Positions 1,706-19,320 of a DNA stretch of 21,571 nt are shown in pieces. The position numbers and the translations under genes were made by a program. The notes below the pieces were generated by a model. It saw nothing but the letters and a program-made list of their open reading frames with translations. It did not search any database and was not told where the DNA came from. Every line of letters begins with the position of its first letter. Within the stretch, counting starts at the first letter, position 1. The stretch comes from a virus: the IMG/VR virus record IMGVR_UViG_3300032053_009316, positions 1 through 21,571 of that record; one strand, given 5' to 3'.

Positions 1706-1718
1706 ATCCCCCATGTTA

Positions 1719-1750
1719 TTTGGTGGTGTGAGATATAATTTGTATCTTTA
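1719..1750 (+). promoter_or_regulatory. Host-type promoter of the small metalloprotease
   Basis: TTTG at 1719-1722, 20 bases, then TATCTTTA at 1743-1750 (last base differs from the TAnnTTTG consensus). The ATG at 1755 follows after four bases, as at 3591, 4228 and 16121, so the mRNA would be leaderless or nearly so. This rules against the alternative ATG at 1713, which lies upstream of the -33 box. Confidence 0.55.
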
Positions 1751-1754
1751 TAGT

Positions 1755-2183
1755 ATGGTCACACGTTTTATAACATATATAGAGAATCGGATTAAGTATA
1801 ACAACAATTCATCCGTTATGTCCCTAACACGTAGAGAGAGAAGAGTCCTTGCTATGTTCTGTCTTAACTATTGTATTGACACTCTTGGTCAGCCAAAGAA
1901 GAACGTCCCTACGGTCAGCGTTGTCAAAGCTACCAAGGAATATTATGGGGAGTATTCTAGTGAACATGGTAAGATATTCATATACTACAACATATGTGAA
2001 TCTGTGGGTCAGTTCATCAGCACATTCATTCATGAGTATACACATCACACTCAGAACCTTAAGAAGTATGAGAAACTTTTATCTACGGTCGGTTACTCTG
2101 ACCATCCCCAAGAGATTGAGGCAAATGAGATGGCAAAGTTACATAAACAAAAATGCCTTGAATTATTTCGTAAGTCCCTCTAA
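1755..2183 (+). CDS. Small zinc-metalloprotease-like protein
   Basis: This 142-residue soluble protein carries an HExxH zinc motif, FIHEYTHHTQ, with His93, Glu94 and His97. A likely third ligand sits in HPQEIEANEMA (Glu120 or Glu122), the spacing expected of small gluzincin-like proteases. The rest is a basic helical N-terminus (about 1-45) and a short strand-rich part (about 52-80). I recognise the fold class only from the motif; substrate and cleavage activity are unknown. The start was chosen because a host-type promoter ends four bases upstream. It has no signal peptide and no N-terminal tag. Its codons use more C-ending triplets (for example GTC, TCC, ACC) than the genes after 3591, which fits the distinct composition of this region. 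The next gene follows after nine bases. Confidence 0.7.
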   Translation: MVTRFITYIENRIKYNNNSSVMSLTRRERRVLAMFCLNYCIDTLGQPKKNVPTVSVVKATKEYYGEYSSEHGKIFIYYNICESVGQFISTFIHEYTHHTQNLKKYEKLLSTVGYSDHPQEIEANEMAKLHKQKCLELFRKSL

Positions 2184-8081: not shown

Positions 8082-8402
8082 ATGAATAAGGTTGTACGCT
8101 TAACAGAATCTAATTTAACTAAGATTGTTAAAAACATTTTAAATGAAAATGAATTTTTGGATGAACCAAGAGATGATTCATTTACTGTGGAACCAAATGT
8201 TAGGATGATCCCAAGAGAAAAACAAATACAAAATATGTTTGGTAAATACGAGGATCAGATTCCAAATGATATATTACGTTATATGAGAAAGAATCCTCAA
8301 CTAATGATGGATAGACTTGCAAGAATATATGGTGAGAATTTTATTGAGTATGCAGAAAAGGCTTATGTAAAAAATATGAAACTATGGAAAGACAATTATT
8401 AA
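8082..8402 (+). CDS. Tagged small protein, class A tag
   Basis: A 106-residue protein. Residues 1-22 are a class A tag: V-V-R-L-T-E-S-N-L-T-K-I-V-K-N-I-L-N-E, with LNE at 20-22 as the predicted cleavage site. The mature part starts with an acidic linker (NEFLDEPRDDSF) and continues as a mostly helical domain (DILRYMRKNPQLMMDRLARIYGENFIEYAEKAY) with no known motif. It would leave a protein of about 84 residues. The gene overlaps the next by 19 bases. Function unknown; the tag is the only informative feature. Confidence 0.65.
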   Translation: MNKVVRLTESNLTKIVKNILNENEFLDEPRDDSFTVEPNVRMIPREKQIQNMFGKYEDQIPNDILRYMRKNPQLMMDRLARIYGENFIEYAEKAYVKNMKLWKDNY

Positions 8403-8977
8403 AAGAAGAATTAAATATGATGAAATACCTTCTTTCTTATGAAAGAGGTGTCGTTATATCAGAACAAAGAAATAATCTCTCAGAAGAGACGGGAATGGGT
8501 TCCATGATGAAAGAAAAAATCCAATCTATGGTTGAAAAAGAGGTTGTTAACGATCCTTCATTGGGTGAGGTATCAAGTAATGTACCGAGTGTTGATGATA
8601 TCATATCTAATGATGAAGTCTGTGACATAGTAACAGGTAATGAAGAACACGATAACATCATTTCAAAAGTTAAGTCTGAGTTAATTAGAATGAAAAAAGA
8701 AAAAGGGGCGAACTCATTATGGGAAGTTCTTAAGAATGTTAAGAAAGGCATTAAAATGGCAATTGTTAAAAATAACTCAGGAGATACGTCCGAACCTGAA
8801 GAAGTTAACGAACAAATTGTTGCGGGTGGAATTATGATTGGAACCGCAATGGTGGGTTGGTCATTATTAATTGCGATCGGAGCAATTTTACTTGTAATTA
8901 TTATTGCAAGTGCATTAATAAAAGATAGTGGTCAAAGTCACGGATGTAGAAAAAACCTTAAGTGGGGTGAAGTGTAA
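8384..8977 (+). CDS. Tagged membrane protein, class B tag
   Basis: A 197-residue protein. The class B tag (EELNMMKYLLSYERGVVISE, ending in ISE at 25-27 followed by Q) is almost identical to that of the gene at 10039. Then come an acidic, helical middle part (about 30-145) and one long hydrophobic stretch at about 148-182 (IVAGGIMIGTAMVGWSLL, then AIGAILLVIIIASALI), long enough for one or two membrane passes, and a short basic tail. A membrane-inserting protein with a putative packaging tag fits a channel or anchor delivered with the DNA, as internal ejection proteins do in other phages. The ATG start lies inside the preceding gene, with a TAATG junction to the next gene. Confidence 0.65.
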   Translation: MERQLLKEELNMMKYLLSYERGVVISEQRNNLSEETGMGSMMKEKIQSMVEKEVVNDPSLGEVSSNVPSVDDIISNDEVCDIVTGNEEHDNIISKVKSELIRMKKEKGANSLWEVLKNVKKGIKMAIVKNNSGDTSEPEEVNEQIVAGGIMIGTAMVGWSLLIAIGAILLVIIIASALIKDSGQSHGCRKNLKWGEV

Positions 8978-10014
8978 TGAAAATCATATTAAGTGAGTCT
9001 CAAATATTGAATCTATTAAATGAAGATATGGGTGTTAGCAGATCAACATTACCATATGTAAATTTAATTTATAGAATTATAGAACCAATGGTGGAATCTA
9101 TGGTTCATAGTGGGAAGTCTTCACGACAAAAAATAAAAATAAGTTTAGATAAAATTAAGAGTATTATAAAAAATGAAGAAGATTCATTTTTAGAATTTCC
9201 GATGGAGGAGATTGAAATTGATATTTTATTTTCTTACGAAAAAGGTGATATAGAAAATCATTTTGGTAGTGGTGGTTCGGCATATCCATTAAATGAAAAA
9301 ACGGGAGATTATTCGTATATGAGAAAACCATCCCCTGAGATCCCCAAAAAAATTAAAAATGAAATTGATATGACATTAAATGCCAAAATAGACATTGATA
9401 TTTATATTGATTCAAAATTTAAGATGAGTCAGATGTATGAATTACTTATGGATGTTAGAGATACCATTATGCATGAAACATTACATTTATATGAATTTTA
9501 TAAAAGATGGTTAAGTACTGGTTCAGGAACATTTAATATAACCAAAACTTTTGCCGGTAGAGAAAATCCAAATACACCAAGAGAAATTTACGATTATTAT
9601 TCTGACTTTTTAGATTACGTTTATTATTCTGAACCATATGAAATAAATGCAATGACCCAAGAAGCATACTCAAAAGTTTTACGAATGAGTTTTGATACAT
9701 TTAAAACAACTAAGTATTGGATTATGTCAAACAAAATGGAAAATTTTAATGCCGATCAATATTATCGTGAATTAGAAAACAAAATTAAAGAACGTAGTGG
9801 TAAAGAAACATTAAATTATCATTTAAATAATTTACACAAATTCTATATAAAACAATATGTTAAAATCGCAAAAGATTTTAATCAACCTGTATCTAATAAG
9901 ATATTGAAGACCAAAAATATTTACGAATTAATAAAAAGTTTTGAACTTAGAATTACTCAATCAGGAAAAAATCTTAAACGTAAGTTTATGAAATTATATA
10001 GTCTTGAAAAATAA
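8977..10014 (+). CDS. Tagged zinc-metalloprotease-like protein
   Basis: A 345-residue protein. Residues 1-16 (KIILSESQILNLLNE) form the class C tag with LNE at 14-16. The core holds an HExxH motif in DTIMHETLHLYEFYKRW (His166, Glu167, His170) and a likely third zinc ligand in SEPYEINAMTQEAY (Glu222), the E-x-x-A pattern of gluzincins. Before it lies a strand-rich region with KIDIDIYIDSKF, and after it a long helical domain. It is not related to the small protein at 1755 beyond the zinc motif. If the tag targets it to the head, it would be a protease carried in the virion that could cleave head, ejection or host proteins. No substrate can be inferred. It starts in a TAATG overlap with the previous gene. 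Confidence 0.7.
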   Translation: MKIILSESQILNLLNEDMGVSRSTLPYVNLIYRIIEPMVESMVHSGKSSRQKIKISLDKIKSIIKNEEDSFLEFPMEEIEIDILFSYEKGDIENHFGSGGSAYPLNEKTGDYSYMRKPSPEIPKKIKNEIDMTLNAKIDIDIYIDSKFKMSQMYELLMDVRDTIMHETLHLYEFYKRWLSTGSGTFNITKTFAGRENPNTPREIYDYYSDFLDYVYYSEPYEINAMTQEAYSKVLRMSFDTFKTTKYWIMSNKMENFNADQYYRELENKIKERSGKETLNYHLNNLHKFYIKQYVKIAKDFNQPVSNKILKTKNIYELIKSFELRITQSGKNLKRKFMKLYSLEK

Positions 10015-10016
10015 CA

Positions 10017-10025
10017 TATATTTAT
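10017..10025 (+). promoter_or_regulatory. Phage-type promoter box TATATTTAT
   Basis: 13 bases before the ATG at 10039, beginning three bases after the upstream stop codon. Confidence 0.55.
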
Positions 10026-10038
10026 TAAACAAAAAATC

Positions 10039-10530
10039 ATGAGTAAAAAAATTATCAAAGAAGAACTTAATCAAATGAAATACCTTTTTGGTTATAAACG
10101 AGGGGTTGTTATTTCAGAACAAGAAATAGATGAAGATAAATTAGTTGTTACTCCGTATACGTTGGAAGCAACTAATGGTAATGTTAAAATAACGGATACC
10201 AAAACTAAAAAATCTTACGTCTATTCACTGAGTGCTTATGGAGTTAAAGTAACCGTAAACGATTTCCCTGATGGAGATAGTATCAGCTACTCAGTTCCTT
10301 TTAAAGGGACAAGTACCCAAGAAGTAAGTAATGATAGTGAATTACCTAAATTAATTAAATCTAATGTTGGTACTTGTGAGTTAAACCCTAAAGTTGGGAA
10401 TATCTCGGTAACCCTTAAATGTTTGTCAGGTTGTGTCGGATGTAAATCCTCTACTGAAAAAGTAATTGACTCAACTATTGACTCAACTAAAAACACCTTG
10501 AAAGGTGCGGCTTCTTATTTAGGATTTTAA
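10039..10530 (+). CDS. Tagged protein, class B tag, Cys-containing
   Basis: A 163-residue protein. The tag (EELNQMKYLFGYKRGVVISE, ISE at 25-27 then Q) matches the gene at 8384 closely. The mature part is strand-rich (KLVVTPYTLEATNGNVKITD, KSYVYSLSAYGVKVTV) and carries four Cys in the last third (TCEL, KCLSGCVGC), which could bind metal or form disulfides outside the cytoplasm. The C-terminus is small and glycine-rich (LKGAASYLGF). It matches no family I recognise. It stands alone between a TATATTTAT box and a strong terminator. Confidence 0.65.
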   Translation: MSKKIIKEELNQMKYLFGYKRGVVISEQEIDEDKLVVTPYTLEATNGNVKITDTKTKKSYVYSLSAYGVKVTVNDFPDGDSISYSVPFKGTSTQEVSNDSELPKLIKSNVGTCELNPKVGNISVTLKCLSGCVGCKSSTEKVIDSTIDSTKNTLKGAASYLGF

Positions 10531-10532
10531 AA

Positions 10533-10560
10533 GTTGTTGGTATTAAGAAATACCAACAAC
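10533..10560. terminator. Bidirectional terminator with 12-base stem
   Basis: GTTGTTGGTATT (10533-10544) and AATACCAACAAC (10549-10560) pair perfectly around AAGA, between two converging genes. The T-tract is better on the minus strand (CTTTTAAAA) than on the plus strand. Confidence 0.7.
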
Positions 10561-10968
10561 CTCAAGATCAAAAATTAATTTTTTACCAGCCAATGGGTGA
10601 TTAGCATCAATTACTACAACCTCATCTTTAACTTCCATAACTTTCACAAAACTAGGACCCATAGGTCCCATTGTTTGTAATACTTGACCAACCTCAACTC
10701 CTTCAGGAACTTTATCTTTGGTGATTTCAATGATCATATCATCAACGTGATCACCATAAGCATCAACAGATTCAATTTCAATTGTTTTTTTATCACCCTC
10801 TAACATATCAACAAGACCTGATTCAAACCCTTTAATAAGTTGTCCTTGACCTAAAGTTGTCGTTAATGGTTCTCTACCTTCAACTAAAGACGTGTCAAAA
10901 ATTGTCCCATCTTCTAATTTTCCAGTGTAATGTACCGTTACGGTACTGTCATTTAAAACTTTTTTCAT
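10543..10968 (-). CDS. SlyD-like FKBP-type peptidyl-prolyl isomerase
   Basis: This 141-residue protein has the FKBP fold interrupted by an insert-in-flap chaperone domain, as in SlyD: VTVHYTGKLEDGTIFDTS (9-26), GQGQLIKGFESGLVDMLEGD (40-59), the flap insert at about 65-120, and the closing DANHPLAGKKLIFDLEVVGI. It catalyses prolyl cis-trans isomerisation and aids folding in the cytoplasm. It lacks the metal-binding His-rich tail of E. coli SlyD. It looks close to the Bacteroidota chromosomal enzymes, so it may be a recent acquisition from a host. It is untagged and faces the tagged genes on the opposite strand; a role in folding virion or effector proteins is an inference. Confidence 0.9.
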   Translation of the reverse strand: MKKVLNDSTVTVHYTGKLEDGTIFDTSLVEGREPLTTTLGQGQLIKGFESGLVDMLEGDKKTIEIESVDAYGDHVDDMIIEITKDKVPEGVEVGQVLQTMGPMGPSFVKVMEVKDEVVVIDANHPLAGKKLIFDLEVVGIS

Positions 10969-11027
10969 AAATTATTCTTTTTTTAAGTATAGAATATATA
11001 TTTTATAATGTAAAATCAAAATAACGA

Positions 11028-11036
11028 TATATTTAT
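11028..11036 (+). promoter_or_regulatory. Phage-type promoter box TATATTTAT
   Basis: 16 bases before the ATG at 11053; the following TATAAAACTATAA closely matches the sequence after the box at 14233. Confidence 0.6.
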
Positions 11037-11052
11037 TATAAAACTATAAAAT

Positions 11053-11451
11053 ATGAAAAGTTTAATAAGTGAACAAGAAAAACTAAGAATACGTTCGATG
11101 CATATCAACGAAAAATACTCATTACTAAAAGAGGAAGGTCAATTTGATGATTTAATGCCAATTCCATTAGAAACAATTAAAAAAGATGATGGGACACCAA
11201 AGGTGGATGGAACAGTTAGTACTTGTGCGGTAGCACCTGAACTTAAAACATTAGTGGATGAAGGTAAATTCAGAACATGGGTAAAAACCACATACCCTAA
11301 TAATGCGGTTAGTGGGATTAAATTATCAGATAAAAGATGGAAAAATCCACCAACTGTTTTCTGTAATAAGGCATTGGCAAATTTATGGAAATCAATAGAA
11401 CCAACATCAAAAGAGACCTATGGTCAATTATACGTTAAAACAATTAAATAA
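11053..11451 (+). CDS. Tagged small protein, class B-like tag
   Basis: A 132-residue protein. The leader KSLISEQEKLRIRSMHINE ends with INE at 18-20, an I-x-E site, and is followed by KYSLLKEEGQFDDLMPIP. The mature part has TVSTCAVAPELKTLVDEGKF and a C-terminal aromatic/basic region with one more Cys (PPTVFCNKALANLW), perhaps a disulfide pair. Without the leader about 112 residues remain. No family recognised. It forms an operon with the next two tagged genes (gaps of six and four bases). Confidence 0.6.
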   Translation: MKSLISEQEKLRIRSMHINEKYSLLKEEGQFDDLMPIPLETIKKDDGTPKVDGTVSTCAVAPELKTLVDEGKFRTWVKTTYPNNAVSGIKLSDKRWKNPPTVFCNKALANLWKSIEPTSKETYGQLYVKTIK

Positions 11452-11457
11452 AAAAAT

Positions 11458-12606
11458 ATGGCAAAGATTATTAAATTAAACGAAAACGATCTTAAAAGAA
11501 TCGTTGTTAAAGTTCTTAACGAAAGACGACTTAATGAAGAAGATGAGGTTAAAACCAATGGGTTGGCGCCTGGTTCTATCACTCAAGATGTTGCGGATCA
11601 ATTAAAATATACTGAAACCGAAACGGGTGAACCTATCGAAAGATTTAGATCAATTTGTGATGTTTGTGTTTCAGGTGTCGATGGTTTAGGTCCTATATCA
11701 CAAAGTGAGGCGGCATTAGAAGGTATCGCAGAAAAGATTTATAATGCGGTGGAGAATACTGAAGCTTGGTATACTTTCGGTGGTGGTACTAATGAAAAGG
11801 CAGTTGCGACTGGAATTAGATCAACAAAAACTTTCCCTGACTTTTGTTATATGATTGATTCTTATGGTAAAAAATATGAAGATTTTTTCACATCTATGGA
11901 AGGTGATTTTGAGGACGATGCGGACCAAAGAGTATATCTCGTATCGCCAGTAGTTGATGTAATCAAAGCAAGTACTAAAATGGTCGGTAAAAAATCTGAT
12001 GAAGTGGTTAAAACTGATGACAATATTAAAAAAGATGACGATAAAAAAGATGAGAAAGTAATTGGTGGTGGTAGTGAAGAACAATCAGATAATTGGAATA
12101 TGTATATGTGTGTTATTGAACATCCTGATGCGATTCCCGAAAAATTCGCTGATGGTAAAAGAACTCGTTTTAGAATTGGAACTGATTACTATATGGGTAA
12201 TGGTAAAAAAATACGTAAGGGTGTTGAATTAGATTATTCATGTAGTGATAAAGAATTCAGAGGTATAAGTTTTGCGGACAAAGAAGATGATATGTCTAAT
12301 AAAAATAATAAAGGTAATAAAAGACCTATAGACTCAGAAGCGATGAATATCCAAGGATTCTTAACTGACGAAGGATATGATATTTCAAAGGACGGTAGAA
12401 TTGGATCTGAAACTGCGGGGGCTATACTTGATTATATCGTAGATAATAACTCAGATGAGTTTAAACCAGCTTCAGTTTTAGAACTTCAAAAGAAAATCAA
12501 TAGTTGTTATTCTATGAAAATAAAAGAGGACGGTAAAGTTGGACCAGAAACATTAAACGCCATTGCAGACGCATTGGAATCGGCACAACAAGGAGATCTT
12601 TGTTAA
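11458..12606 (+). CDS. Tagged protein with two peptidoglycan-binding-like repeats
   Basis: A 382-residue protein. Residues 1-22 are a class A tag (IIKLNENDLKRIVVKVLNE, LNE at 20-22). The middle (about 45-180) is unrecognised, with Cys in SICDVCVSG; residues about 190-212 are a Lys/Asp-rich linker (KKDDDKKDEK). The C-terminus holds two PG_binding_1-like units: IQGFLTDEGYDISKDGRIGS (from about 297) and LQKKINSCYSMKIKEDGKVG (from about 343), each with the L-x-x-x-G-Y/C ... DG-x-x-G-x-ET-x-x-A-I pattern. Such modules bind the cell wall. In a protein with a head-packaging tag this suggests action at the host wall during entry, though no catalytic domain is visible. Confidence 0.7.
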   Translation: MAKIIKLNENDLKRIVVKVLNERRLNEEDEVKTNGLAPGSITQDVADQLKYTETETGEPIERFRSICDVCVSGVDGLGPISQSEAALEGIAEKIYNAVENTEAWYTFGGGTNEKAVATGIRSTKTFPDFCYMIDSYGKKYEDFFTSMEGDFEDDADQRVYLVSPVVDVIKASTKMVGKKSDEVVKTDDNIKKDDDKKDEKVIGGGSEEQSDNWNMYMCVIEHPDAIPEKFADGKRTRFRIGTDYYMGNGKKIRKGVELDYSCSDKEFRGISFADKEDDMSNKNNKGNKRPIDSEAMNIQGFLTDEGYDISKDGRIGSETAGAILDYIVDNNSDEFKPASVLELQKKINSCYSMKIKEDGKVGPETLNAIADALESAQQGDLC

Positions 12607-12610
12607 TTAA

Positions 12611-13114
12611 ATGAATATTATTATCACCGAAAGTCAATATCGTATACTACTTGAAAATCAAGAGGAGGTTGATCGCATATTAGATAAAATTAGTGATGGT
12701 GGTTATGAGTCTTTAAGTATTGACGAAAAAAGATACTTGGATGTATTTTCAAAACATAAAGGAAGACCTGATGAATTTATTGATCCTTCTGAAAGTTATG
12801 ACGATAGAGAAGGTGAAAAATTTACCTCATCATTTAATCACATACCAAAGATAGAGTTTGTTTTTGATTATGAAGAACAAACTGAAAATGAAACCGCATT
12901 ATATGGGACAATATTGTTTAAAGATAAAGAATACATTGGTGGTTTATTCTTAAACAAAATGGGACACTTAATAAACTTTGATTTCTATGATATTAATGAA
13001 GAACCTGAAAGTATACACGATGATGTAGGTAGATTTCAAAATGAAATAGAAGGAATTGAATATGAAGTTAAAATGTTTTTTGAGGATGATGTTATTCCAT
13101 CATTAATAAACTAA
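12611..13114 (+). CDS. Tagged acidic protein with DUF6576-like segment
   Basis: A 167-residue protein with a class C tag (NIIITESQYRILLE, LLE at 13-15). Right after it comes VDRILDKISDGGYESLSIDE, which resembles the helical motif found at the C-terminus of Bacteroidota rhomboid-family proteins (DUF6576: LDKIS-x-x-GY-x-SL-x-x-EK). The rest (about 70-167) is acidic and strand-rich (KIEFVFDYEEQ, ALYGTILFKDKEYIGGLFL), with no motif that I can name. It is the last gene of the three-gene tagged operon. Function unknown; the DUF6576 resemblance is by eye. Confidence 0.6.
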   Translation: MNIIITESQYRILLENQEEVDRILDKISDGGYESLSIDEKRYLDVFSKHKGRPDEFIDPSESYDDREGEKFTSSFNHIPKIEFVFDYEEQTENETALYGTILFKDKEYIGGLFLNKMGHLINFDFYDINEEPESIHDDVGRFQNEIEGIEYEVKMFFEDDVIPSLIN

Positions 13115-13132
13115 AACTTTTTTAAAAATTAA

Positions 13133-13141
13133 TATATTTAT
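13133..13141 (+). promoter_or_regulatory. Phage-type promoter box TATATTTAT
   Basis: 32 bases before the ATG at 13174, a longer leader than at the other sites, with an A-rich stretch in front of the start. Confidence 0.5.
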
Positions 13142-13173
13142 ATATAACAATAAAAAACCGAAAAAAAATTAAA

Positions 13174-13692
13174 ATGAAAAGAAAAATAAGATTAACCGAA
13201 AGCGAATTAACCACTCTTATTAAAAGAATGGTAGAACAAGCACAAGATGGTATGGAAAATCCTGAAATGGAAGAAGGATGGTTAGGCGACAAATTCAAAG
13301 ACGTTAAAAGATGGGGTACCGGATATGGTGACGAGTCAGAGAAAGAAGAAGCTGAAAAGGCATTCTTTGATAAAATGGATGAGTTAGAGTCTGAGGTTAT
13401 GGAAGATCTTGAAAACTTTAGATATGAAGATGAACAAGGATGGGAAGATGCTAAAGAAAGAATTATCGGACAGGCTGAAGATAATAACTTTATGGGTGAA
13501 TTAAAAATGATATACCCAAGAGAAACTAATAGAGGTAGATTTATGCCAGGATTTATCAATTACATTAAAGGTGAGAGTAGAGCAAAAACACTTATGGGTA
13601 ATTTAGGTTCAGGAGCAGCAGGAGCAACAAGAAGTTACCAAAGTAAAGCTCAGGCAAATGAAAACAGATTTAACAGACGTAGATTAAGATAA
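13174..13692 (+). CDS. Tagged charged protein, class A tag
   Basis: A 172-residue protein. The class A tag (KRKIRLTESELTTLIKRMVE, MVE at 19-21 then Q) fits L/I-x-E less well than the others. The mature part is very acidic in the middle (ESEKEEAEKAFFDKMDELES; about 55-85, coiled-coil-like) and strongly basic at the end (SYQSKAQANENRFNRRRLR). The acidic-then-basic layout suits a DNA-contacting or core (scaffold-like) internal head protein. No family recognised. It ends 20 bases before a strong terminator. Confidence 0.6.
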   Translation: MKRKIRLTESELTTLIKRMVEQAQDGMENPEMEEGWLGDKFKDVKRWGTGYGDESEKEEAEKAFFDKMDELESEVMEDLENFRYEDEQGWEDAKERIIGQAEDNNFMGELKMIYPRETNRGRFMPGFINYIKGESRAKTLMGNLGSGAAGATRSYQSKAQANENRFNRRRLR

Positions 13693-13711
13693 TTAAAAAC
13701 AAATTTTATAT

Positions 13712-13741
13712 AAAACCGTAAGAGATCCTTACGGTTTTTTT
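13712..13741. terminator. Bidirectional intrinsic terminator
   Basis: The stem AAAACCGTAAG (13712-13722) / CTTACGGTTTT (13728-13738) is followed by a T-run to 13741 on the plus strand, with A-residues on the other side. It serves the converging genes ending at 13692 and 13729 and overlaps the end of the latter. Confidence 0.85.
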
Positions 13742-14154
13742 GTTTCCAATACAATCAAATCAATTTTGTTGATTGAGTCAATTCCTGACTCCAAGATTTT
13801 ATCCAAAACCATGTCTATCGTTAGATTATCTTTAATGTAAGAATCTAAAACATCTTTATTTTCAATATCAGAAAAAGATACGGTAAAATCTTCATTTATA
13901 TTATTTCCTGACAAAACCATAAATGTGATGTCCGAATAGTCAATTAAGATTTTATTTTTAGATAAAATTGTTTTAACTTGATCTGTCTTATAATCACTCA
14001 AAAAAGTATACATTAAATCAAGGTCTCCACACTCTCCCATAACAAAAGAATTGAATGGTTCGTCTTTAACCAATTCTTGAATCTTTCTGAATACCATACG
14101 GCCAACAGATTCGTACTTTGGTTTTCCTACTTTGAAATATCCTACTCGTTTCAT
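13729..14154 (-). CDS. Hypothetical 141-residue protein
   Basis: An untagged cytoplasmic protein: a basic start (MKRVGYFKVGKPKYESVG), a helix (RMVFRKIQELVKDEP), then alternating strands and helices with hydrophobic strands ILIDYSDITFMVLSG and IDLIVLETKK at the end. There is no signal peptide, membrane segment or catalytic motif that I can name. It has a host-type TATATTTG box 19 bases upstream and faces away from the tagged gene at 14256, so its timing is probably different (early). Confidence 0.6.
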   Translation of the reverse strand: MKRVGYFKVGKPKYESVGRMVFRKIQELVKDEPFNSFVMGECGDLDLMYTFLSDYKTDQVKTILSKNKILIDYSDITFMVLSGNNINEDFTVSFSDIENKDVLDSYIKDNLTIDMVLDKILESGIDSINKIDLIVLETKKP

Positions 14155-14173
14155 ACTTCTTATGTTTATATAA

Positions 14174-14181
14174 CAAATATA
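14174..14181 (-). promoter_or_regulatory. Host-type -7 box TATATTTG
   Basis: Reads TATATTTG on the minus strand, 19 bases before the ATG at 14154. The -33 position has only a weak TTTTC. Confidence 0.45.
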
Positions 14182-14232
14182 CGAAGAATATATTGAAAAT
14201 ACTAATTCGACCCTTAATTTTTTTTTATATGT

Positions 14233-14241
14233 GATATTTAT
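14233..14241 (+). promoter_or_regulatory. Phage-type promoter box GATATTTAT
   Basis: 14 bases before the ATG at 14256; the downstream AATAAAACTATAAT parallels the site at 11028. Confidence 0.55.
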
Positions 14242-14255
14242 AATAAAACTATAAT

Positions 14256-15431
14256 ATGAGTAAAATATTAAATGAAGAAATTCAAAGATATAAATCCCTT
14301 ATGGGGTTAACTGAATCTGAAAGTAATTTAACTGAACAACCTGTTGATTTTACAATTAGACCTAAATTTTGGAAAGGCGCAAAAGGTATTGGATCAGGTG
14401 GAGTTAGAGTACGTATTAGTAGAGGTAAAAGATTAAAATTAAGAAAAGGTAAATCAAGTAACTATCAAGAAGTTAGTGGTGAAGATTATGAGGTTGTAAC
14501 ACCGCAAGACCAATGGGATACATTTTTATCTAACGACTCTCAAATGAAAAAATTAATGAGTGATAGTTCTATAAGTGTTTGGGAAACTTTAAAGAAAGAT
14601 GAAGATGATAAACAATATGCGGTTATTGTATTAGAACAATTCAATAGTACATATCCTACTGAAAAATGGGAAACTGTTACCGTAGGTTTAACTGAAGGTT
14701 TTGAAGAAATAGTTGCGAAAGGTAAAGAAATAGTACACCCTGCATTACCAATCAGATTTCCGAATGATTTACCACCAAGCTCAAATTTTTTTAAGGATAA
14801 TTATTATGAGATTACCCCATTGTTTGTTGAGACCGTTAAAAAAGATATTATTGATCCTTTAGTAGAACAAATGGCATTATTAACACCGCCTCAAGGAAAA
14901 CCTAAAGCATTTTTGGAAGACATCGATGTTATTTCATCTTGTTCAACATTACCTAACGGTAAATCACCTGATGGTAAAACTTACACATTTGATCAATTAT
15001 CAAAATTAAGAGCTCAGACCGCAATGGATTATATAATTGCTCAATTACAAAAAATTGGTGTTGTTGTAAATGAAACAACCACTAAAGAGATGGCCTATAT
15101 GGGTGAAAATGGTGATGGTACTTCAGGCCCTTCTTGGCTTAAAGTTCCTCAGGCAGAAAAGAACGCTAAAAGACCTGAATTTAATCAATACAAAAAAATT
15201 GATATTGAATTAAGTGTTGTACTTAACACAAGTGTGGATCCGACAATTTCTAATGAACCTGATATTATTACTCAAATACCTACCGATGATTACACGGCAG
15301 AATTTAGTAAACCTGGTAAAAAAGGTTTATATTTAACGTTACCGAGAATACAACTTAGTTGGAAAAAAAGAAGAAGAAGAAAAACAAGAAAACATAAATA
15401 TAGAACAATTGATTGTCCTATCTTTAACTAA
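14256..15431 (+). CDS. Tagged protein with OmpA-like domain
   Basis: A 391-residue protein. The leader SKILNEEIQRYKSLMGLTE has two possible sites, LTE at 18-20 and LTE at 25-27 followed by QP. After a basic, glycine-rich stretch (about 40-70), residues about 165-330 follow the OmpA/MotB C-terminal pattern: FPNDLPPSSNFFKDNYYEITP, IDVISSCSTLP, and the signature FDQLSKLRAQTAMDYIIAQL (N-x-x-LS-x-x-RA-x-x-V), then YMGENGDGTSGPSW and QYKKIDIELSVVL. This fold binds peptidoglycan in envelope proteins. The end is extremely basic (KKRRRRKTRKHKYR), as in DNA-binding tails. An OmpA-like domain without a signal peptide but with a packaging-type tag is unusual. It has its own promoter box and terminator. 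Confidence 0.7.
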   Translation: MSKILNEEIQRYKSLMGLTESESNLTEQPVDFTIRPKFWKGAKGIGSGGVRVRISRGKRLKLRKGKSSNYQEVSGEDYEVVTPQDQWDTFLSNDSQMKKLMSDSSISVWETLKKDEDDKQYAVIVLEQFNSTYPTEKWETVTVGLTEGFEEIVAKGKEIVHPALPIRFPNDLPPSSNFFKDNYYEITPLFVETVKKDIIDPLVEQMALLTPPQGKPKAFLEDIDVISSCSTLPNGKSPDGKTYTFDQLSKLRAQTAMDYIIAQLQKIGVVVNETTTKEMAYMGENGDGTSGPSWLKVPQAEKNAKRPEFNQYKKIDIELSVVLNTSVDPTISNEPDIITQIPTDDYTAEFSKPGKKGLYLTLPRIQLSWKKRRRRKTRKHKYRTIDCPIFN

Positions 15432-17085: not shown

Positions 17086-19320
17086 ATGAAATTAATTACT
17101 TACTTATTATTGTTTATAACCTTTCAAGGGTTTGCACAATATTGCCCATATCTTGGGCCAGATCAACTATTACCTTGTGGTGTTGGTTCCACTACTCTAA
17201 CCGCCGATTTAACTCAATGTGGTGTCGGAGGATCTAATCCTAATCAAACCACAAACTATGTGGCAACAAATATTCCATTTGTTAACCAAACAAATACAGG
17301 AACAAATTTAACAATGGCAGATGATTCACAACAAGGACCATTTAATATTGGATTTAATTTCTGTTTCTTTGGGACAACCTACACACAATTTTACGTTGGA
17401 TCTAATGGGTGGGTTTCATTTAGTGGTGGTCAACCAACTACATTTACGTCACAAACAATACCAACGGGAAATGTTTTAGTTCCTAAGAATTGTATTATGG
17501 GTCCGTGGCAAGATTGGCATCCAGGTCTTGGGGGTCAAATTAAGTATCAAGTACAGGGGACCGCTCCTTGTAGAAAATTAGTCGTTAGTTGGATTGGAGT
17601 TCCAATGTTTTCTTGTACTTCTAATCAAGGAACGTTCCATATTGTAATTTATGAGTCAAGTAATCTAATTGAAAATCATATACAAAGTAAACCATCTTGT
17701 TTACAATGGCAAGGAGGAACTTCAGTGCAAGGTATACATAATTTAGGTGGTACGATAGGTATTACCTCACCAGGAAGAAACTCAACTGTATGGACCGCAA
17801 ATAATGACGCATACAGATGGACACCAAGTGGGCCTGTAGTAACACCTACACTTACTTGGTACCAAGTTGGTAACCCAATTCCAATTGGTACTGGACCAAC
17901 AATTAATGTAACCCCTCCATCAGGAGGTGCAAACTATACTTGTCAGTTTGTATACCCAATATGTAATGCAGGATGGTCAAGTTGTAACTCAGGAATAGGT
18001 AATTTAGGTCCTGACACCGTATTTGTTTTACCTGGACCACCAAACTTACCTTTACCAATAATAAATGTTGTAAATCCAACGTGTGATAACTTGTGTGATG
18101 GAATTATTGGTATTATACCACAAGGTGGAACAGGAGTTCAGACTATTTCATGGAATGGGTCTCAACCACCCACATTTAACCAAATTGGGTTATGTGAGGG
18201 AGTTTACTCTTTTATAATAACAGATGGTGCGGGTTGTACAGTTACCTCATCAGCAACTTTAACAGATCCACAACCCATTGTCATAGATCCAATAATTGGG
18301 GTAAACATTTTATGTTTTAACTCAACAACTAATCCATTTACGGTATCAAGTCCAACACCTAACCTAAATTATGTTTGGATCACAACAAATGGTACTATAA
18401 CTTCAGGTCAAGGAACTAATCAAATGAATTTGGATGTCACTGGTGTTGTTGGGGGGAATTATAATGGTATGGTATCGGTATATGGTCAAAATATAAATGG
18501 ATGTGTAAGTCAAACAGAAACATTTAATGTTAACATATTAAACATACTACCTGTTATAGATCCAACGGGTCCTTATTGTGAGTACGATGGATGTACAACA
18601 ATAAACCCAACACCTGCAGGTGGAACTTTATTTGGAAATAACATTTTGGGTAACCAATATTGTCCTGATAATGGTTTTGTGGGTATTGACAACGTTAGTT
18701 ATGTATATAATCAATCAGGGTGTGTGTTTAGTACAAATATAGATGTACAAGTTTACCAAAGACCAATGGTTAGTCCTGTTGTTAATGGTACTATTGATTT
18801 AAATAATGAGTATCATGAATTATGTGAGGGAGATAGTATAATTGATCTATATGAAGGAATTTCCCCTAATGGTGGTTATAATGAATGGTATGTTTTTGGA
18901 GATACCTTACAAGGACCAACAATTAACATAACTTGGGATACTGAAGGTGTGTTTAACTTTGAGGTTGTTAGATGGGAGAATGGGTGTTCCTCATTACCAC
19001 AGGATTTTAATGTTACAATAGAACTTTGTCCTGATATGATTTATTATATACCTAATTCCTTTACTCCTGACGGAGATGAACATAATAATACGTTCAAATG
19101 GATTTTTACAAGCGGTTTTGATCCCATGAACTTCAATATTGTGATATTTAACAGATGGGGAGAACTTATATTTGAAAGTAATAACCACATGAGTTATTGG
19201 GATGGTACTTATGGTAATAAAATATGTCCATTAGGTGTCTATACGTATAAATTACAATTTGGTGATCCTAAAACAGATGGAAAATATGTACTAACAGGTA
19301 ATGTTAACCTAATTAGATGA
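17086..19320 (+). CDS. T9SS type B-sorted surface adhesin with SprB-like repeat
   Basis: A 744-residue secreted protein. Signal peptide 1-18 (KLITYLLLFITFQGFAQ, then Y-C). Residues about 60-245 form a beta-rich N-terminal domain (FNFCFFGTTYTQFYVGSNGW, KLVVSWIGVPMF) common in large Bacteroidota adhesins. A SprB-like repeat at about 328-395 begins VNPTCDNLCDGIIGIIPQGG and has TISWNG and GLCEGVYSFIITDGAGC. More Ig-like segments follow. Residues about 655-744 are a type B T9SS sorting domain (gliding-motility C-terminal type): IPNSFTPDGDEHNNTFKW, IFNRWGELIFES, WDGTYGN and GVYTYKLQF. Such proteins cross the outer membrane by T9SS and stay on or leave the surface. No PorP/SprF partner gene is adjacent, so export would rely on the host. 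The gene overlaps the next by four bases. Confidence 0.85.
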   Translation: MKLITYLLLFITFQGFAQYCPYLGPDQLLPCGVGSTTLTADLTQCGVGGSNPNQTTNYVATNIPFVNQTNTGTNLTMADDSQQGPFNIGFNFCFFGTTYTQFYVGSNGWVSFSGGQPTTFTSQTIPTGNVLVPKNCIMGPWQDWHPGLGGQIKYQVQGTAPCRKLVVSWIGVPMFSCTSNQGTFHIVIYESSNLIENHIQSKPSCLQWQGGTSVQGIHNLGGTIGITSPGRNSTVWTANNDAYRWTPSGPVVTPTLTWYQVGNPIPIGTGPTINVTPPSGGANYTCQFVYPICNAGWSSCNSGIGNLGPDTVFVLPGPPNLPLPIINVVNPTCDNLCDGIIGIIPQGGTGVQTISWNGSQPPTFNQIGLCEGVYSFIITDGAGCTVTSSATLTDPQPIVIDPIIGVNILCFNSTTNPFTVSSPTPNLNYVWITTNGTITSGQGTNQMNLDVTGVVGGNYNGMVSVYGQNINGCVSQTETFNVNILNILPVIDPTGPYCEYDGCTTINPTPAGGTLFGNNILGNQYCPDNGFVGIDNVSYVYNQSGCVFSTNIDVQVYQRPMVSPVVNGTIDLNNEYHELCEGDSIIDLYEGISPNGGYNEWYVFGDTLQGPTINITWDTEGVFNFEVVRWENGCSSLPQDFNVTIELCPDMIYYIPNSFTPDGDEHNNTFKWIFTSGFDPMNFNIVIFNRWGELIFESNNHMSYWDGTYGNKICPLGVYTYKLQFGDPKTDGKYVLTGNVNLIR

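Follow-up and report, generated by a model that had tools for sequence, protein, structure and literature searches.

The window, by which we mean the whole 21.6-kb stretch of viral DNA analysed here, contains an uninterrupted open reading frame on the plus strand (8977..10014, ATG start, stop codon included) that encodes a protein of 345 amino acids. Its features lie where an initial annotation had placed them. The first 16 codons (8977..9024, +) specify the presequence MKIILSESQILNLLNE, termed the class C tag, which ends in LNE (codons 14-16, 9016..9024, +) and thus in a putative gp21-type cleavage site with the cut predicted after Glu16. A HETLH motif is found at codons 166-170 (9472..9486, +) and would provide two metal-binding histidines and the catalytic glutamate. 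Glu222 (9640..9642, +), the predicted third metal ligand, sits within YSEPYEINA. The protein has no sequence match in Pfam, PHROGs, NCBIfam or the PDB, the Pfam scan gave no match to PF03420 (Peptidase_S77, gp21), and no second domain was found by Pfam, PHROGs or NCBIfam.

The gene belongs to an array of nine plus-strand ORFs with tag-like N termini (8082..15431, +). All nine carry an [LIV]xE motif that ends within residues 8-30, compared with a mean of 5.7 ORFs in shuffled arrays, 20 of 1000 of which reach nine. Tag types in the array include RLTESxL, EELxxMKYLxxYxRGVVISEQ, IITESQ and others. Immediately upstream lies an ORF of 197 amino acids (8384..8977, +) whose tag is of another kind and which includes a hydrophobic segment. 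It overlaps the start of the protease gene by one base, and the two may thus be translationally coupled; this upstream ORF is related to the one at 10039-10530. Four relatives (L006, L012, L015 and L019) show a start overlap too, here with a tagged 293-aa ORF unrelated to the upstream gene of the window. This 293-residue protein may be a substrate, partner or inhibitor in those phages. An FKBP-type peptidyl-prolyl isomerase ORF (10543-10968, -; NCBIfam, below cut-offs) lies inside the tagged array on the opposite strand, and a similar ORF is present in one of the enzyme-carrying contigs (G005, 231584-232015). Further downstream, a 744-aa protein (17086-19320, +) contains a T9SS type B sorting domain (TIGR04131), which suggests a Bacteroidota host; the sequence data thus suggest that the source is a large environmental phage of Bacteroidota. 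A second HExxH ORF in the window (1713-2183, +; 156 amino acids, HEYTHH) has no obvious tag and shows weak Pfam likeness to the putative metallopeptidase DUF6782 (E 0.0029, below cut-off).

We searched for relatives of the 345-residue protein. In a phage collection, tblastn found homologues in only 2 of 50,697 records, the uncultured huge-phage genomes LR756502 and LR745206 (630-640 kb), of which LR745206 holds a second copy (L068). A profile scan of IMG/VR added 29 loci with a homologue, and one 48-kb contig holds two very distant copies. A second viral scan using distant members returned no further contigs, no cellular homologue was found, and the genome_contigs collection yielded no confirmed relative. 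Including the window protein, the family comprises 34 sequences, 29 of them distinct, all from uncultured phages. By sequence comparison this tagged HExxH family is unnamed; Pfam, PHROGs and NCBIfam contain no family that covers it.

Any HExxH motif occurs in 0.8% of composition-preserving shuffles of the window protein, and thus the motif by itself is suggestive rather than decisive. Its reality is settled by conservation across the family: the HETLH positions are invariant and HExxH-x-YE-x-Y is kept in all 29 distinct proteins. A second motif, E[LI]xAxxQ, follows 55-62 residues downstream in 28 of these by pattern, and the remaining protein, L068, has the recognisable equivalent FEINARISQ. 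The glutamate corresponding to Glu222, 55-62 residues beyond the first histidine of HExxH, is conserved in every member inspected. Glu219 is invariant in the closer set only and is absent from the distant copies, which makes Glu222 the better candidate for the third ligand. Within the close group dN/dS is 0.06-0.12 (for the window protein and L005, dN is 0.10 and dS 0.38). The sequences thus indicate that the enzyme is under purifying selection, active-site residues included, and the low dN/dS together with the conserved active-site residues argues that it is maintained.

We calculated an AlphaFold2 model from a 21-sequence family alignment (mean pLDDT 87.2, pTM 0.83); a single-sequence AlphaFold model was poor (pLDDT 44) and was dropped in its favour. 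Residues 1-20, which include the presequence, are poorly ordered in the alignment-based model (block means 46 and 59), and from around residue 21 onwards the domain is modelled with confidence. Its elements are a helix (residues 22-45), strands at 49-55 and 76-87, further strands, a strand at 133-144, and then three helices, 150-181, 202-217 and 220-234, of which the first carries HExxH and the last Glu222. The order of elements in zincins has been described (PMC5512222), and that of the modelled protein fits it, the two core helices being separated by an insert. For the metal site, His166/His170/Glu222, the prediction draws solely on sequence and secondary structure. The initial annotation had read HETLH and Glu222 as a gluzincin active site, a reading strengthened by the invariance of the pair in the family and by the model, a confident one, which places the pair on two helices of the domain core. 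The placement of the residues and the zincin-like element order agree with the zinc site that the annotation had suspected, but no solved structure matches significantly. A Foldseek search of the PDB with the family model gave no significant match, and in a VIA-align comparison with solved structures, which likewise returned nothing significant, the best hit was a designed helical protein (Z 5.1). Foldseek against BFVD recovered close family members (A0A6J5L9D6, E 9e-36) and weaker matches.

Among the top weak VIA-align hits, two of the longest alignments, at Z 3.7 each, pair the model with 8s5f, a HExxH oxygenase domain, and with 6atk, an M1 aminopeptidase. We rejected both as evidence for the fold; this score is at the noise level of the tool. 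The 8s5f alignment nevertheless brings up a reading in which a packaged HExxH protein does not hydrolyse peptides at all and is either an oxygenase dependent on iron and alpha-ketoglutarate, with a fold like that of zincins, or a structural protein that binds metal. HEXXH oxygenases are able to cut peptide backbones oxidatively (PMC12636437), and 8s5f ranks among the longest alignments, as does the peptidase 6atk. Given that noise-level score, the lack of any NCBIfam, Pfam or PHROGs match, and a standard zincin ligand set that is complete and invariant, unlike that of a structural relic, we regard this reading as quite improbable. It is quite likely that the predicted metallopeptidase is active as a protease.

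We next consider the N terminus. Aligning the 21 distinct N termini of the family at the junction reveals one catalytic domain behind many presequences, which range from 6 to 77 residues in length and belong to several unrelated types. The class C type reads MKVVITEEQYKQM|LNE and another MRVRLSEEQLKKL|IKE; huge phages and their relatives have T4-like presequences such as MGIINFKNFQ|LNE, MKYIKPYSNFS|INE and MIICKFNEFMP|LNE. A very short one is MKELSL|ISE, and distant copies have long presequences of 24-77 residues, the longest in L068, which still keeps LNE at the junction. The junction glutamate is present in 21 of 21 N termini and [LI]xE in 20 of 21 (the sole exception is TNE in L032), counts that come from a small family with shared ancestry and are hence not independent. 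Across these N termini the junction directly precedes xxG[VLIR] of the common domain. Since the upstream sequence and its length vary while the last three residues and their position relative to the domain are fixed, the junction behaves as expected of a protease site.

In phage T4, the head protease gp21 cleaves after L/I-X-E, and internal proteins bear short N-terminal propeptides that target them to the capsid; in IPIII, the initial ten residues are enough for this targeting (PMC9026906). T4 IPII and IPIII begin with MKTYQEFIAE, and the enzymes from LR756502 and LR745206, which begin with MGIINFKNFQLNE and MKYIKPYSNFSINE, resemble them. Around the enzyme gene of the two huge phages, a T4-type tag pattern is shown by 9 of 40 ORFs in one region and by 8 of 39 in the other (shuffled means 0.9 and 1.0, respectively), an excess that is descriptive because the pattern was defined after viewing the huge-phage N termini. 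The aromatic/hydrophobic targeting pattern of T4 is present in the huge-phage homologues (L003 and L004) but absent from the class C tag of the window. Over all ORFs of T4-like contigs the enrichment of [LIV]xE is weak (z 0.8-1.8), and we thus do not claim that every tagged ORF is packaged. For both of these reasons the assignment of class C as a head signal draws mainly on the exchange of tags within the enzyme family. Searches with tag sequences gave no match, whether a short tag of class A was run through tblastn or the tag strings were sought in the literature.

The missing aromatic pattern and the weak overall enrichment also speak for a reading in which the N terminus is a helix or a sorting signal for somewhere else, such as the tail, an assembly chaperone or a host complex, and the protein an ordinary intracellular phage protease. 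We consider this rather unlikely, as unrelated presequences of differing length retain the [LI]xE junction and, in the huge phages, a T4-type tag replaces class C among T4-type-tagged neighbours. Sequence comparison rather favours an N terminus with the traits of a capsid-targeting propeptide that can be removed and that has a gp21-type [LI]xE site at its end. The packaging tag suspected in the initial annotation thus gains support from the conserved junction, from the exchange of tags, T4-like ones included, and from the head genes of relatives. Among these, the enzyme-carrying contigs G005, G006 and G008 encode both a gp21-type protease (PF03420) and a gp23 capsid protein (PF07068) above cut-off, and in LR756502 and LR745206 gp23 scores above and the gp21-type protease below cut-off. 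No gp21 was found in the window, which is a 21.6-kb fragment. On the contig of a relative (L022), a 316-aa ORF with a class C-like N terminus, MKISVSETQYQVILE (L055:203-1153), lies in the head cluster between the gp21-type protease gene and a 502-aa ORF preceding gp23; a Pfam scan of this ORF was uninformative.

The metallopeptidase gene itself is located outside the head-gene cluster, and its neighborhood changes completely between lineages. It adjoins thioredoxin-like ORFs in L005 and a DnaK-like ORF in L023-L025, and is found inside a conserved T4-type-tagged cluster in the huge phages. Contexts that are unrelated between lineages and away from the head cluster fit cargo better than assembly machinery. 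The initial annotation had left a choice between an early effector delivered with the DNA and a head-maturation factor, that is, a second maturation protease that would cut phage head proteins in the prohead or virion with no need for injection. The latter would agree with an enzyme that appears to be targeted to the prohead, and a conserved zincin of group 1 jumbo phages has been proposed to carry out extra maturation cleavages (PMC7824862). Relatives, however, already encode a T4-type maturation protease, the gene is far from the head cluster in a context that is not conserved, and a homologue in only 2 of 50,697 phage records implies that such heads are generally matured without the enzyme. 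We thus judge a maturation role unlikely. An injected effector is favoured by the maturation protease already encoded in relatives, by accessory gene contexts that are unrelated between lineages and lie apart from the head cluster, and by the protein itself, which looks like a substrate of such a protease.

From the active-site motif, the loosely ordered N terminus, the [LI]xE junction, the exchange of tags and the gp21 and gp23 genes of relatives, all of which emerge from comparison and computation, we infer the following chain of events. The gene product would be a stand-alone zincin-type metallopeptidase, presumably binding zinc, that is made as a precursor. Its first 16 residues would act as a capsid-targeting propeptide that directs it to the prohead core, where the gp21-type prohead protease of the phage would cut after Glu16, so that residues 17-345 remain within the head as the mature enzyme. 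The mature enzyme would be carried in the virion, most likely be ejected with the DNA, and cleave one or a few proteins as infection starts. Its targets may be host proteins with defence or regulatory functions, or possibly co-injected phage proteins. Packaging together with processing appears likely to us; for the whole chain, including the injected role, we see an even chance or slightly better. More tentatively, and less likely than not, the family could be a new one of metalloproteases that are processed in the prohead, packaged in the head and injected by large T4-related phages so as to disarm host proteins. An exchangeable tag module would load them, one effector enzyme having been re-tagged for different head-assembly systems. 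If injected, the enzyme could be at work before the phage expresses any of its genes, as a stand-alone protease that the virion brings along.

We compared the family to known packaged proteins. T4 IPI-III and Alt likewise have an N-terminal propeptide ending in L/I-x-E, which gp21 removes in T4, and they resemble the family further in the gp21-type protease encoded in relatives' genomes, in diverse cargo behind an exchangeable tag and in accessory contexts. The cargo of the window, in contrast, is a predicted metallopeptidase, and its class C tag does not resemble that of T4 in sequence, whereas the huge-phage homologues use a T4-type one. Zincin domains are known in packaged or injected polyvalent proteins, for example the N4 virion RNA polymerase and P1 DdrB (PMC5512222). 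These MPTase domains are predicted zincins with HExxH and a glutamate on the following core helix and are thought to be packaged and injected, as we propose for the window protein, but they form part of large multidomain proteins. A proposed role in host-protein cleavage or virion maturation has been put forward for jumbo-phage zincin/SprT-like metallopeptidases, for which the accessible text describes no targeting propeptide (PMC7824862); the window protein has no SprT match in Pfam, and we set this identity aside on that ground. A HELQH-containing protein annotated as structural, CBB_322, was detected by mass spectrometry in particles of phage CBB (30 unique peptides, 43.57% coverage; PMC5259590). 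In light of these zincin domains and of CBB_322, a head-borne protease is less unusual than the initial annotation had supposed. New here would be, judging from sequence, a single-domain enzyme of an unnamed family that has its own predicted processed and exchangeable tag. Tag swapping within one enzyme family offers a means to tell from sequence alone which uncharacterised proteins large uncultured phages load into the head. It also marks out class C N termini (MKxIITESQ..LNE) as a putative capsid-targeting signal of T4-like Bacteroidota phages.

The Rak2-like jumbo-phage HExxH proteins CBB_321/322 and BF_0319/0320 share with the family an [LIV]xE motif near the start of the conserved domain, but they are much larger and have no detectable sequence relation to it. 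Foldseek against BFVD aligned BF_0319 with the family fold (E 6.7e-3, low TM-score), a profile search in which the family alignment was run against the genomes of Serratia phage BF and PhiPA3 gave no match, and homology of the BF_0319/CBB proteins to the family is unsupported by hhalign (probability 1-3%). The two groups may thus be parallel rather than homologous. In both Serratia phage BF (L092:5959-9977) and phage CBB (L093:2690-6843), two of these HExxH proteins are encoded next to each other and annotated as structural, and the annotations make no mention of the metallopeptidase motif.
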